Positions 94 to 20,055 of a stretch of DNA of 20,055 nucleotides are shown one piece after another. Made by a program: the position numbers and the translations under genes. Source of the stretch: a virus. Numbering within the stretch: the first letter of the stretch is position 1; the number at the start of each line of letters is the position of its first letter. Where the stretch lies: the IMG/VR virus record IMGVR_UViG_3300025141_001029, positions 1 to 20,055 of that record; one strand, written 5' to 3'. The notes below the pieces were generated by a model, which saw only the letters and a program-made list of their open reading frames with translations, ran no database searches and was not told the DNA's origin.

Positions 94-1485
94 TTATTTA
101 ATAGCGCCAATACTCTTCCAGCCGCTACCTATTCTGTCCCAAGTAGTTAATGCGCCAACTTGTACTGGAGAAGAATAATCAGTGGTATTGCCTTGACCTA
201 ATTGGCCGTTAGCATTATCACCCCATGCCCAGAGAGTGCCGTTTTCTGACATAGCAAAAGATGCTTTCCAAGCAATACCTATCCTGCTCCAAGTAGTTAA
301 TGCCCCTACTTGAACCGGAGAACTGCGATTAGTGGTACTTCCATCACCTACTTGTCCTTCAGCGTTACCTCCCCATGCCCAGAGTGTTCCATCTGTTTTA
401 AGGGCAACAGTGTGTAGGTAATGAGTAGAAACCTCCAACCAATCAGTAAGAGCGCCAACTTGTACTGGAGAGTTTTTATCAGTGGTATTCCCTTGGCCTA
501 ATTGCCCAGCACCATTCTCACCCCACATCCAAAGAGTGCCGTCTGTTTTTATTGCACCAACAGTAAAGTAGCTTGCTTGTACTTTCGACCATGTAGTGAG
601 CGCCCCTACCTGCTTAGGCGAAGAATAGTTAGTGGTATTGCCTACACCCAACTGGCCTTTGTTATTTCTTCCCCAGCTCCATAAGGTTCCGTCAGTTTTA
701 ACAGCAATACAACCATAGTAGCCCGATGAAGCCTGTAACCAATTAGTAAGCGCACCGACTTGTACAGGAGAATTATAGTTAGTGGTATTACCTTGACCAT
801 TCCCACCATAGTTACCCATTCCCCAACACCACATAGTTCCACTACTTTGAACGGCAGCTACATTGTTATAAGAAGCTGATATAGATACCCATGTAGTAAG
901 TGCGCCTATTTGTTTTGGTGAAGAATAATTAGTGGTATTGCCTAAGCCATTTTGCCAATAACCGCCTGCACCCCATGACCACGCAGTCCCATCAGCTTTA
1001 ACAGCCAAAGTAATTTTTGCTCCTCCAAATGTTTGCAACCAATTAGTGAGAGCACCTACCTGTACCGGGGAGCTTCTATCGAGAGTGCTTCCCTCGCCCA
1101 ATTCACCTTCACTACCTTCGCCCCACATCCAGAGTTCACCACCATTAAAAATTGCAATGCTATTGCTTGCAGCGCTTCCTCCGCTTGGCCCGTAAGCGTT
1201 AGTAGCACTAACAGTAACAGTATAAGTTTGCCCTTTGGTTAGACCCGAAACCACAATAGGAGAAGATGCCGCAGTTCCCGTAAAGACCGCAGCAGTAACA
1301 GTGTCGGTAGCTATCGCCTCATAACTCGTTATTGCACCACCACCCACATCTGAGGGCGCAGTAAAAGTAGTGGAGATTCCATCGCTCCCCGATGCAGATG
1401 CTGCCCCAATAGTGGGCGCATCCGTTACTAATAACGGATTGTAACCGGGACGTATAAAGCCGCCGAGAGTGTCGCTTATAGGCAT
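94..1485 (-). CDS. FN3 plus seven-blade RCC1-repeat tail or receptor-binding protein
   Basis: This 463-aa protein has three parts. Residues 1-20 are a short N-terminal segment. Residues about 22-112 look like a fibronectin type III domain (ITSYEAIA, then GLTKGQTYTVTVSATNAYGP). Residues 114-463 form seven RCC1-type repeats. Each repeat carries a W-x-WG core with WG at 121, 171, 221, 271, 321, 371 and 421, then GxGxxT, SSPxQVGALTxW and an xVKTDGT strand. The spacing is exactly 50 residues with no insertion. RCC1 proteins form seven-bladed beta-propellers, so a complete propeller is predicted. Adhesion domains at the distal end of a late operon usually sit at the tail or fibre tip, so host or glycan binding is inferred. 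It could instead be a capsid decoration. No lysis, enzymatic or signal-peptide motif is visible. Confidence 0.85.
   Translation of the reverse strand: MPISDTLGGFIRPGYNPLLVTDAPTIGAASASGSDGISTTFTAPSDVGGGAITSYEAIATDTVTAAVFTGTAASSPIVVSGLTKGQTYTVTVSATNAYGPSGGSAASNSIAIFNGGELWMWGEGSEGELGEGSTLDRSSPVQVGALTNWLQTFGGAKITLAVKADGTAWSWGAGGYWQNGLGNTTNYSSPKQIGALTTWVSISASYNNVAAVQSSGTMWCWGMGNYGGNGQGNTTNYNSPVQVGALTNWLQASSGYYGCIAVKTDGTLWSWGRNNKGQLGVGNTTNYSSPKQVGALTTWSKVQASYFTVGAIKTDGTLWMWGENGAGQLGQGNTTDKNSPVQVGALTDWLEVSTHYLHTVALKTDGTLWAWGGNAEGQVGDGSTTNRSSPVQVGALTTWSRIGIAWKASFAMSENGTLWAWGDNANGQLGQGNTTDYSSPVQVGALTTWDRIGSGWKSIGAIK
97..1146 (-). repeat. Seven in-frame 150-bp repeats encoding RCC1 blades
   Basis: The DNA repeats with an exact 150-bp period across most of the RCC1 gene. 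The recurring plus-strand block is an AGT-rich linker followed by a 'gcgcc-act-tgtac-ggaga' element that encodes SSPVQVGALT on the minus strand. Copies differ mostly at the loop codons between GxG and the SSP motif and in the strand after ALTxW. Such a regular array could expand or contract by recombination, but all seven copies are present here. Confidence 0.8.
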
Positions 1486-15477: not shown

Positions 15478-16182
15478 TTAGTGGGAGGTTGGAGGCGGCC
15501 CTTTATCGGCTCGCTTCTTCACAGGGAATTCAATGACTTCCCACTCATCGGTTCCTTCCCGCTGAGCAGAAGCATGGTAACTATGCTCTAAACCGGCAAT
15601 AGCCTCCTGAACCTTCGTGTATATACCATCAAGGATCGGTGGAACCTCCTGACGAGGCCAGCTTTTCGGGGCTATCAATCGTTTAGGATATTTCTTTCTA
15701 TGCTCTCGGCTTAGAAATATAGCTTCCTCTGCGCTTAACTCAAAACCAACAGTGGCTTCATTTGAGCTAAGCGTTACCACAAATGTATCAATTCGCTTGT
15801 GTATTCTCTTTGGTTTGACAGGAGCAACAGTCTCTTCGTAGCGCTCCAGCGTAACATAGGGGAAACAGTTACTGTGGTATTGGTGATCATGCCTGAAGGT
15901 AAAGTTATTACGTTTCAGGTCATTAACGCACATATCAATGATTGCCCCCAGAATATCATCATTACCGGCAAGGGCTACACCACAACTGGCTTGTTTCCTC
16001 TGGTCTTGTTCTCTTTGGTTATTCAGCTCTTGTTGAACTTCTTCTGGCAACGAATCAAAATCAACCTTCTCATAACCTGACGCACCGAAGATACCCAACT
16101 TTGCATCTGCTGGGCCTTTCCCAAAGGTGCTCTTTGAGTCCCAAAAATCTTTAACCCACTTCTCATACTCGTCGTCAGTCAT
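15478..16182 (-). CDS. Hypothetical protein with terminase-derived C-terminus
   Basis: This 234-aa protein begins MTDDEYEKWVKDFWDSKSTF, then DSLPEEVQQELNNQREQDQR, a Cys/His-containing middle (DMCVNDLKRNNFTFRHDHQY, C67, C85 and C106) and EATVGFELSAEEAIFLSREH. I recognise no family for the first 200 residues. Residues about 204-220 (ASAQREGTDEWEVIEFP) are nearly identical to residues 239-255 of the large terminase encoded upstream, and the DNA is about 90% identical there. The last 14 residues (VKKRADKGPPPTSH) are unique. The C-terminus therefore looks chimeric. A GGGAG ribosome binding site precedes the ATG. Confidence 0.7.
   Translation of the reverse strand: MTDDEYEKWVKDFWDSKSTFGKGPADAKLGIFGASGYEKVDFDSLPEEVQQELNNQREQDQRKQASCGVALAGNDDILGAIIDMCVNDLKRNNFTFRHDHQYHSNCFPYVTLERYEETVAPVKPKRIHKRIDTFVVTLSSNEATVGFELSAEEAIFLSREHRKKYPKRLIAPKSWPRQEVPPILDGIYTKVQEAIAGLEHSYHASAQREGTDEWEVIEFPVKKRADKGPPPTSH
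15522..15573 (-). repeat. 52-bp copy of a large terminase segment
   Basis: Positions 15522-15573 match 17143-17194 inside the large terminase gene at 47 of 52 bases, the first 28 being identical. Both lie on the same strand and in the same reading frame, encoding REGTDEWEVIEFP in each. In the terminase this segment is part of the ordinary ATPase-to-nuclease region, so this is the derived copy. Confidence 0.9.
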
Positions 16183-16399: not shown

Positions 16400-17908
16400 T
16401 TAGTAGTAATCAGCCTTTCTGGTCAGTTTTGGTTCGTCATCTGCCTCGTCACTGCCGAGGCTGAGGAACCCACCCTGTCTGAATCTGAGTAATGCCTGTG
16501 TCGATGAATCTACAAGGTCGTCATGTTCTCCTGCCGGAAAAGCCGCGAATTCGTTAATTACGTCCTCGGCAAATCGGGTTTCAGGACACCAGACAACGCC
16601 TGATGCGAACAAGTCAGCAACAGCGTTTACCCGCGCTATCTTGTCGTTGCCCCGTGTAGGGGTGAATTCGGAGACCGGAATGCCCATTGCCCGTAACTCA
16701 AATATGAGCGGGGTTCCCGCTGCCTTGGCCTCAACGATAAAGGCATCGGGTTTAACGTCCTGATACATCTCGTAAGCTACTTTCTTGAGTTCAGGAAATT
16801 CGAGGCGTTCCTTGTAAGCATCCAGAAGGATGATGTTCGGTGTGGTAGTGCCTTCATCATCAGGGGAATAGAAAACCCCCCATGTGGTGCAGGCCGAGTA
16901 GTCAGCCCGTTGGGTCTTGAGAAAAGCGGTATCCCATGATTGGATCACGAACTCGCATTGGGGCGGGGATTCCTTCTCCCATGTCCTCCACCACTCCTTC
17001 TTGACCAGCGCCCCCTCCTCAGAGGTGGGATTCTGCTGGTATTGCGCGTTCCACTTGGCCGAGGGAAGCTCGGCCTTGAGTGAGTCCAGCTCCTTCAGGC
17101 TCCAGAACTCAGGCCACAGGGAATTGCCCGAAGGCATAATTGCAGGGAATTCAATGACTTCCCACTCATCAGTTCCTTCCCTTTGAGTCGAAGCCTTGAT
17201 TATCTTCCCTGTCAGGTCGCGCATGTGCCACCGTGTCATCACGATCACAATAGCGCCACCGGGTTGTAAACGCTGGCGAGGGCCGGAGGTGTACCAGTCA
17301 TACGTCTTGTCAAATACCGAGGGATCAATACTTTGACCTTCCTGCTCACTATGAGGGTCATCAATGATAAGCAGGTCTGCACCTTTACCAGTAACAGCTC
17401 CCCCAACCCCGATAGCAAAGTATTCGCCACCTTGATTGGTACTCCAGCGCCCAGCCGCCTTGGAGTCAGCCCTTAATGCCAGCTCTGGGAAAACCTTTTT
17501 AAAATCCTCGTCATCAACGAGGTTACGCACCTTGCGCCCGAATCCTACTGACAACTCAGCAGTATGGGCGGTCTGGATCACCTTCTTCTCAGGATACTGA
17601 CCCAAGAACCATGCAGGTAACAGGTAAGAGGCAAATTCACTCTTGGTATGCCGCGGCGGCATATTGACAATCAACCGCTTTAAATCGCCATCAGCGATAC
17701 GCTTGAATGCCTCAGCCATAATCTGGTGGTGGCGCCCCTCAATGAAGGCAGGCCACATGTGTTTAACGAAATCCAAGAACCCAGCACGGGACTTTTCCCG
17801 CCGTTTGGCGGTATCCAGTGAGTCAAGCATATCAAGGATTTCTTTCTGACGGTCTACAGGAAGCCCATGAATACGGGCCTTCAGGGATGAATCGATAGTT
17901 AAAGCCAT
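16400..17908 (-). CDS. terL: Terminase large subunit
   Basis: This 502-aa protein is the DNA-packaging motor. The N-terminal ATPase has a Walker A-like VNMPPRHTKSEFAS (residues 81-94), Walker B ADLLIIDDPH with the acidic pair at 183-184, and a coupling-motif VIVMTRWH (221-228). The C-terminal RNase H-like nuclease has SWDTAFLKT (D326), IVEAKAAGTP (E393) and EHDDLVDSSTQAL (D463-D464). It cuts concatemeric DNA and pumps it through the portal. It lies about 600 bp after the small terminase. The ATG at 17908 has AGGGA 7 nt upstream. Residues 239-255 are copied into the downstream 234-aa protein. Confidence 0.93.
   Translation of the reverse strand: MALTIDSSLKARIHGLPVDRQKEILDMLDSLDTAKRREKSRAGFLDFVKHMWPAFIEGRHHQIMAEAFKRIADGDLKRLIVNMPPRHTKSEFASYLLPAWFLGQYPEKKVIQTAHTAELSVGFGRKVRNLVDDEDFKKVFPELALRADSKAAGRWSTNQGGEYFAIGVGGAVTGKGADLLIIDDPHSEQEGQSIDPSVFDKTYDWYTSGPRQRLQPGGAIVIVMTRWHMRDLTGKIIKASTQREGTDEWEVIEFPAIMPSGNSLWPEFWSLKELDSLKAELPSAKWNAQYQQNPTSEEGALVKKEWWRTWEKESPPQCEFVIQSWDTAFLKTQRADYSACTTWGVFYSPDDEGTTTPNIILLDAYKERLEFPELKKVAYEMYQDVKPDAFIVEAKAAGTPLIFELRAMGIPVSEFTPTRGNDKIARVNAVADLFASGVVWCPETRFAEDVINEFAAFPAGEHDDLVDSSTQALLRFRQGGFLSLGSDEADDEPKLTRKADYY
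17143..17194 (-). repeat. Source copy of duplicated 52-bp segment within terL
   Basis: This is the partner of the copy at 15522-15573 (47 of 52 bases equal). It encodes STQREGTDEWEVIEFPA between the ATPase coupling motif and the nuclease domain of the large terminase, a place where related terminases also have a W-E-V-(I/L)-x-(F/L)-P-A segment. This one is therefore the ancestral position. Confidence 0.9.
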
Positions 17909-19100: not shown

Positions 19101-19192
19101 GATAATTCCTCATAATTCTTTTATCTGACATCTGTAGTTAAATCAGTAACTTAGAGCCATATTAAAGTCTTTTCTAATTTATTTTCTCGTCT
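19101..19192. other. A/T-rich divergent spacer
   Basis: This spacer separates the leftward terminase operon from the rightward structured region. It is clearly richer in A and T than either flank. It carries the ribosome binding site of the 50-aa gene, a copy of TGACATCTG (19127-19135) that also occurs at 18352-18360, and probably promoters for both directions. No gene is seen. Confidence 0.5.
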
Positions 19193-19200
19193 GCTATAGA
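19192..19200 (+). promoter_or_regulatory. Candidate extended -10 promoter for structured RNA
   Basis: TGC-TATAGA at 19192-19200 is an extended -10 sequence (TGn plus 4 of 6 matches) at the sharp change from A/T-rich spacer to GC-rich structured sequence. No good -35 is seen 17 bp upstream (TTCTAA at 19172-19177). If used, transcription would begin near 19207. Confidence 0.35.
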
Positions 19201-19204
19201 TATG

Positions 19205-19569
19205 TCAGCCGTAACGTGGTAATTTGCCAACTCTGTTGGCAAGCCGGGGCAGCCGGAGGTTCTCGCCACAGAAAGCCCGAAGGATCGGGCTTCCGATTCG
19301 ACAGCCGCAGGGTGCGGCGCGACAGCCACTCGCCCAGTCGCAGAATCGCAGCGCAGTCCACCGCCCGCGCTGACTAGAAATAAGAATGCGGGACTCCGGC
19401 GTTGGAAGCGACAGCTTCCTTTGATCCAGACACCTGAGCAGATACCTCACAGGGATTGCCCCAGCATAGCGTGAGGATTCAGGCAGACGGCTCCACCAAC
19501 AGAGGTGCAAAGGGTTAACTTCACGATGTAATGTGTCAATAAAAGGCACCAGTGCGGTTTCGAGGTTCT
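19205..19569 (+). ncRNA. GC-rich hairpin-dense leader or unknown large structured RNA
   Basis: This stretch of about 365 nt has no convincing coding frame. A 114-codon minus-strand frame lacks a ribosome binding site and has an implausible composition. It contains several compact hairpins: TTGCCAAC-TCT-GTTGGCAA (19224-19242), AAGCCCGA-AGGA-TCGGGCTT (19273-19292), GCCGCA-GGG-TGCGGC (19304-19318), GGAAGC-GACA-GCTTCC (19404-19419), and CCTCAC pairing GTGAGG over 19445-19476. It begins at a promoter-like sequence and runs into the hammerhead ribozyme, so it is probably transcribed as one RNA. It does not match tRNA, tmRNA, RNase P, SRP or group I/II core motifs that I could look for. The strand is inferred from the ribozyme. 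Confidence 0.5.
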
Positions 19570-19625
19570 GACGGTCAACACCTGATGCGAGGTGTTCTGA
19601 CGAGGGCCAGCAGGCCGAAACCGTT
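19570..19625 (+). ncRNA. Type III hammerhead ribozyme
   Basis: All core positions of a hammerhead are present. Stem III pairs GACGGT (19570-19575) with ACCGTT (19620-19625). C17 is 19576, giving a GTC cleavage triplet and predicted cleavage between 19576 and 19577. Stem I is a perfect 7-bp AACACCT / AGGTGTT (19577-19583, 19590-19596) with loop GATGCG. The core CTGACGA (19597-19603) fits CUGANGA with C at the variable position 7. Stem II is GGGCC-AGCA-GGCC (19604-19616) with one bulged G. GAA (19617-19619) precedes A15.1. Stem III is open, so this is type III, the same layout as the tobacco ringspot satellite hammerhead. Cleavage would leave a 5'-OH RNA starting 71 nt before the next ATG. Confidence 0.88.
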
Positions 19626-19647
19626 TCATCTATATGAGGAATAACCT

Positions 19648-19752
19648 ATGCCCAATCAAGGCACCTTAGAACAACGCTATGCAATTTATGTCGCTTGCAT
19701 GCAAGGTTCAGGCGAGTACATCAAGTCATTCTCTGAATGGCTCAACTCTTAA
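19648..19752 (+). CDS. 34-aa hypothetical protein behind the ribozyme
   Basis: The ATG at 19648 has a GAGGA ribosome binding site 8 nt upstream. The protein is MPNQGTLEQRYAIYVACMQG followed by SGEYIKSFSEWLNS. From memory, small proteins with LEERYAxY near the start and SFxEWLxS at the end are widespread in phages and plasmids, with no known function. It lies 71 nt after the predicted hammerhead cleavage site and 24 bp before the 74-aa gene, probably in the same transcript. Confidence 0.7.
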   Translation: MPNQGTLEQRYAIYVACMQGSGEYIKSFSEWLNS

Positions 19753-20001: not shown

Positions 20002-20016
20002 AAACGAGTCTATATC

Positions 20017-20040
20017 GAAGGCACTGTAACCAGTGCCTTC
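20017..20040 (+). terminator. Perfect 10-bp hairpin after the 74-aa gene
   Basis: GAAGGCACTG-TAAC-CAGTGCCTTC is a perfect 10-bp stem with a four-base loop, followed by TATTAT rather than a strong T-run. It sits 15 bp after the DUF4258-like stop codon and marks the likely end of the rightward transcript. Lack of a long T-run leaves an RNA-processing or bidirectional role possible. Confidence 0.7.
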
Positions 20041-20055
20041 TATTATGGGTTCCAC

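Follow-up and report, generated by a model that had tools for sequence, protein, structure and literature searches.

Hammerheads of all three types are already known from phages (PMC7761336), and their role there has been described as an open question (PMC6155905). The type III hammerhead (Rfam RF00008), reported from bacteria and phages (PMC3088659, PMC7761336), shares with the element analysed here the core, three stems, an open stem III, a predicted contact between loop I and loop II and an intergenic phage setting, whereas the present element departs from it in having an additional nucleotide separating A9 from stem II, a score under the Rfam cut-off and a long structured leader ahead of it. 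An extra residue between A9 and 10.1 is likewise found in the (+) hammerhead of CChMVd, which carries an extra A10 (PMC3705267, citing de la Pena & Flores 2001); unlike that plant viroid element, the present one resides in phage DNA, belongs to a group in which the extra residue is mostly U (G in this copy) and has conserved UGAUGC and AGCA loops. A type III hammerhead was also found in Roseobacter phage CRP-125, at 38170-38224 of OR420743.1 (2475-2529 of locus L195; 53.8 bits), which similarly has a loop II with AGCA and is located ahead of a gene start codon and behind a long non-coding stretch, but lacks an extra nucleotide after A9 and precedes a different gene. The annotated start of CRP-125 gp49 (38141) lies upstream of this hammerhead, and its true ATG is likely at about 38241. 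In a related phage (L055, 3163-3245, - strand), a type II hammerhead (RF02276) directly precedes the start codon (ATG) of a gene that diverges from the terminase, the latter being 52% identical; it also sits in a divergent leader upstream of the terminase, in a comparable place, but represents another circular permutation and another sequence.

The element under study lies in a 20,055-base IMG/VR virus fragment, analysed as a whole and referred to below as the window, and is almost certainly a hammerhead by descent, constituting a variant of the known phage hammerheads. It is encoded on the + strand between the terminase genes and a 34-aa ORF followed by a DUF4258 gene; the terminase genes are on the - strand, in line with the originally described divergence from the terminase operon, and the DUF4258 call also stands, just passing the Pfam cut-off. 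The RNA (GACGGUC^AACACCUGAUGCGAGGUGUUCUGACGAGGGCCAGCAGGCCGAAACCGUU) forms three helices joined at the core, and because stem III is the open one, the topology is type III. Direct reading bears out the claim that every invariant core element (GUC, CUGANGA, GAAA) is in place: C3 U4 G5 A6 N7 G8 A9, G12 A13 A14 A15.1 and U16.1 H17 are all present, in the strings GUC^, CUGACGA and GAAA, together with the three stems. Stem III has 6 bp with an outer G-U pair, and the pairs flanking the core are A-U at 1.1-2.1, A-U at 15.1-16.1 and G-C at 10.1-11.1. Stem I comprises 7 bp (19577-19583 with 19590-19596), although only 6 are conserved among the relatives described below (19577-19582 with 19591-19596), and stem II has 4 bp rather than 5. 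The predicted cleavage site and the 71-nt leader that cleavage would leave before the ATG at 19648 agree with the coordinates given originally. These and the neighbouring features are compiled in Table 1.

Table 1. Coordinates of the ribozyme, its parts and neighbouring features; positions refer to the window except for the counterpart in L008.
Feature	Position	Strand	Basis or remark
Structured non-coding leader, ~360 nt	19190..19550	+	Conserved in L002, L003 and L008; without Rfam family
Leader counterpart in L008	4080-4545	-	Conserved structured RNA, about 360-460 nt, divergent from terminase; hairpin at its end instead of ribozyme
Competing 8-bp helix strand, CGGUUUCG	19555..19562	+	Complementary to 19616-19623 (CGAAACCG); preferred by predicted MFE
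Type III hammerhead ribozyme, whole motif	19570..19625	+	R1 43.8 bits, E 6.8e-10; R2 47.7 bits, E 4.5e-14
Stem III, 5' strand	19570..19575	+	Pairs with 19620-19625; A15.1-U16.1 is 19620-19575
U16.1	19575	+	Read from sequence
C17	19576	+	Read from sequence
Predicted cleavage site C17^A1.1	19576..19577	+	Deduced from core position
Stem I hairpin, loop UGAUGCGA	19577..19596	+	Covaries at all 6 pairs in subfamily
Core CUGACGA (C3-A9)	19597..19603	+	Read from sequence
Extra nucleotide (G) separating A9 from stem II	19604	+	U or A elsewhere in the subfamily; R2 alignment
Stem II GGCC/GGCC, loop AGCA	19605..19616	+	Sequence and R2 alignment
Core GAAA (G12-A15.1)	19617..19620	+	Read from sequence
Possible 3-bp kissing contact	Loop I UGC 19586..19588 with loop II GCA 19610..19612	+	Suggested by complementarity
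Shine-Dalgarno-like GAGGA	19636..19640	+	Read from sequence
34-aa ORF	19648..19752	+	Downstream of ribozyme; absent in L002 and L003
DUF4258 protein, 74 aa	19777..20001	+	Pfam PF14076, 25.9 bits, cut-off 25

The hammerhead is a simple motif, and Perreault et al. (PMC3088659) warn of its accidental occurrence in large databases, so that a chance resemblance has to be weighed. The original prediction held such an accident to be very improbable, and an exact-core descriptor covering all three topologies indeed matched the window at 19570-19625 only, while shuffling the window 1500 times at order 1 and searching both strands for the three topologies yielded 99 weaker matches and none with a stem I of at least 6 bp and a stem III of at least 5 bp. 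Nevertheless, the corresponding chance rate, extrapolated from the shuffles as ~1e-4 per window, is by itself insufficient against chance in a large scan, as many windows were probably read, and evidence was therefore sought at the level of the family.

The Rfam models, whose application had been proposed with the original prediction on the understanding that no match above threshold would speak against it, gave just such a result. Neither the full window nor a 271-nt slice gave a cmscan match at the ribozyme locus, even at E 10, and RF00008 and RF02276 run on the whole record gave no match to the window copy, which has no RF00008 score at or above the gathering score of 48.5 bits, a value that serves as a detection threshold and does not define the ribozyme. 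Taken literally this goes against the prediction, but the null is uninformative, since cmscan was also silent on the type III hammerhead of CRP-125 and on the textbook type II hammerhead of L055 (28.2 bits with RF02276), and the 48.5-bit cut-off was passed by 0 of 8 phage hammerhead records. RF00008 does name the copy in the related phage L022 (28.5 bits, E 8e-4) and scores that of L205 at 31.3 bits.

Independent models were built from phage sequences. When viral contigs were scanned with a pattern (GGTC...CTGAYGAG...CGAAACC) in which stem pairing was not demanded, at least 119 stretches matched, and 82 distinct hammerheads with paired stems were selected among the matches listed. One contig, L093, bears three type III copies within ~2 kb, a clustering also described for prophages. 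A covariance model (R1) derived from 30 of these 82, all unrelated to the window copy and none of them from its clade, was run unfiltered over the entire window and scored 43.8 bits at exactly 19570-19625, the second-best place reaching 9.3 bits. A second model (R2), built from the subfamily to which the window copy belongs, gave 47.7 bits against 8.6 bits for the second-best place.

This subfamily is defined by traits that the window shares with L022, L204 and L205, namely UGAUGC in loop I, AGCA in loop II and a single nucleotide separating A9 from stem II. A pattern combining them (TGATGC-N5-9-CTGANGA-N6-AGCA-N5-GAAA), again without a demand for pairing, matched 16 stretches in viral contigs, in all of which stems I, II and III are formed, and 8 in genome contigs, where the stems are formed in one (L224, with two subfamily copies 1.7 kb apart on a single contig). 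Counting phage contigs other than the window, the subfamily occurs in a dozen or more. Among 14 distinct subfamily sequences, counted with the window left out, 95.5% of the alignment cells in stem positions are paired (59% in shuffles), both-sided changes occur at 14 of the 16 pairs, including covariation at all six pairs of stem I, and the covariation score is 0.94 compared with 0.21 in shuffles, a signal lost when partners are slid by 1-3 columns. The loops, UGAUGC(U) and AGCA, could possibly kiss; both were preset by the search pattern, which leaves no room for covariation between them.

The stem lengths originally described (6, 7 and 4 bp) hold, while the bulge assigned to stem II is better read as the extra nucleotide after A9 that is a hallmark of the subfamily; the G-C pair at 10.1-11.1 is compatible either with G19604 left unpaired ahead of it or with a bulge inside stem II. 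The window copy has the extra nucleotide and both loop motifs and departs from the subfamily in the identity of its extra base, in a stem II of 4 bp and in a loop I longer by one base. In the other viral stretches the extra base is mostly U, with A in a few, and G was seen only in the window among the extra nucleotides observed. For the CChMVd (+) hammerhead, replacing the extra A by U is reported to speed cleavage and replacing it by G to slow it strongly (PMC3705267, citing de la Pena & Flores, JBC 2001). As this A10-to-G change is strongly detrimental in the viroid, G19604 is a caution on activity and, by analogy, could lower it.

R1 was also run over 58 loci around relatives of the window phage and CRP-125. 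In L022/L023, whose terminase is 82% identical to that of the window, it scored 36.0 bits for a divergent ribozyme 1.65 kb upstream of TerL, the same arrangement as in the window, where the distance to the terminase is 1.66-1.72 kb. In L215 (terminase ~81% identical), a ribozyme occupies the same slot, ahead of the same small gene. Between L022 and L215 the core is identical, while in stem I a G-C pair is exchanged for A-U and in stem II two pairs are altered on both sides; core variation without covariation among homologous phages had been named as grounds for doubt, and the opposite was found, the core being kept while stems I and II covary. These compensatory changes in syntenic homologues, together with the R1 and R2 scores and the subfamily covariation, rather than the shuffle figure, exclude a chance origin, the likelihood of which is now negligible, and uphold the original assignment of a type III hammerhead at 19570-19625. 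Among named phages and plasmids, nucleotide searches found no homologue of the window region.

Closer relatives document how the locus changes. In L002 and L003, core and stems are fully intact, which alone is little evidence because the contigs are nearly identical; across 19564-19629 there are zero variable bases among three near-identical contigs, although the leader does vary. The DUF4258 gene follows the ribozyme directly in L002 and L003, its ATG standing at about the distance that separates the ribozyme end from the ATG of the 34-aa ORF in the window (22 nt), and the start-codon spacing is thus maintained while the gene changes. In L008 (terminase 98% identical), the leader and DUF4258 are held in common and a plain hairpin stands in place of the ribozyme, which indicates that the ribozyme comes and goes among relatives.

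The leader is conserved in its own right, being kept in L008 despite a small terminase only ~60% identical, and its hairpins hold their pairing through changes such as GCCAAC/GTTGGC to GTCAGC/GCTGGC. No Rfam match was found for 19190-19550 and no leader homologues beyond L002, L003, L006 and L008; assignment as a tRNA or tmRNA was rejected, as ARAGORN found none. The leader of L022/L215 is unlike that of the window in sequence, yet is also hairpin-rich with paired changes. It is conceivable, although rather unlikely, that the main purpose of the ribozyme is to form the 3' end of the leader as a free-standing phage ncRNA rather than an mRNA 5' end: the L008 leader runs into a strong hairpin at the place of the ribozyme, as though one type of 3' end could stand in for the other. 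This hairpin, however, has no good T-run and the same hairpin type follows DUF4258 in the window, while most phage type III hammerheads lie near a downstream start codon and many 10-30 nt after an upstream ORF, which points to mRNA processing.

Several other features were recorded in these sequences. Similar long hairpins (GAAGGCACTG...CAGTGCCTTCTATTATG), lacking a strong T-run, are found repeatedly where genes or RNAs end (window 20014-20043, L008 4065-4127 and two copies in L043). A 52-nt piece, ~90% identical, is present at window positions 15522-15573 (TerL) and 17143-17194 (a 234-aa protein), with the common peptide QREGTDEWEVIEFP. The 463-aa protein encoded at 94-1485 (- strand) appears by eye to contain RCC1-like repeats (W.WG.N..GQLG) after a fibronectin-like stretch.

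The strand immediately upstream of the ribozyme (CGGUUUCG) offers a competing fold. Energy minimisation gives -31.3 kcal/mol with the competing helix and -19.8 kcal/mol for the hammerhead fold, and the helix has P ~0.99 in the predicted ensembles of both 19550-19640 and 19180-19660; a comparable 8-nt complementary match upstream occurs in only one of the 82 other hammerheads among the matches listed. Such a helix could, on these models, reduce activity, and may be either chance or a switch. Together with the G seen only in the window and the short stem II, it raises the prospect that this is a real hammerhead by descent that is weak or locked in this clade, staying mostly uncut as an ordinary leader hairpin. 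That outcome is improbable, as core and stems are wholly intact in all three near-identical contigs and as energy models without tertiary contacts also give a low stem III probability for L022, L215, L204 and L205; a model failing for most other subfamily members tested makes the competing helix weak evidence against activity. Slightly more doubtful still is a leader-controlled ribozyme, in which the leader and the competing strand would toggle self-cleavage in response to a signal during infection; if true, expression of the 34-aa ORF and DUF4258, or release of the leader RNA, would be responsive to that signal.

An active hammerhead near the 5' end of a phage transcript divergent from the terminase, self-cleavage included, is the reading that we consider probable, and its position relative to genes is consistent with a role in mRNA processing. 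Among the matches listed, 78 phage type III hammerheads were covered by sufficient sequence, and in 58 of these a Shine-Dalgarno sequence and start codon lie 5-45 nt downstream. The 8% obtained for random positions is too generous a control; randomly positioned 55-nt blocks within intergenic gaps reach 49%, against which the enrichment is modest, and, with many loci related, it is suggestive. An upstream ORF ends less than 100 nt away in 49 of 82 hammerheads among the matches listed, and the downstream proteins of 46 hammerhead loci have no common family. This placement fits the proposal of Perreault et al. (PMC3088659) that phage transcripts are cut to gene-length mRNAs.

In this model, transcription from 19190 onward would produce an RNA in which the three stems form, the UGC of loop I would contact the GCA of loop II, and self-cleavage would follow between C19576 and A19577. 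Upstream of the cut, the structured leader would be left ending in a 2',3'-cyclic phosphate. Downstream of it, the mRNA encoding the 34-aa ORF and DUF4258 would begin with a 5'-OH and carry the stem I hairpin at its extreme 5' end, its start codon lying ~20 nt beyond the ribozyme. Such processing would be independent of host RNase and would probably stabilise the mRNA, free the leader as a separate RNA, or both. We infer that the likely role of the window copy is to cut the leader off the 34-aa/DUF4258 mRNA.

The extra-nucleotide subfamily, the ortholog covariation and the start-codon position appear to be new, having no match in the literature compared. The failure of Rfam thresholds on the phage hammerheads tested implies that annotation pipelines likely under-report these elements, and CRP-125 provides a named, isolated phage with a type III hammerhead that would allow 5'-OH ends to be mapped in infected cells. 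The analysis thereby defines a phage subfamily marked by its additional core nucleotide and an ortholog pair whose stems differ by compensatory changes. The shared position ~20 nt ahead of start codons argues for mRNA processing at single genes, and the job of the subfamily is likely the trimming of phage mRNA without host enzymes.
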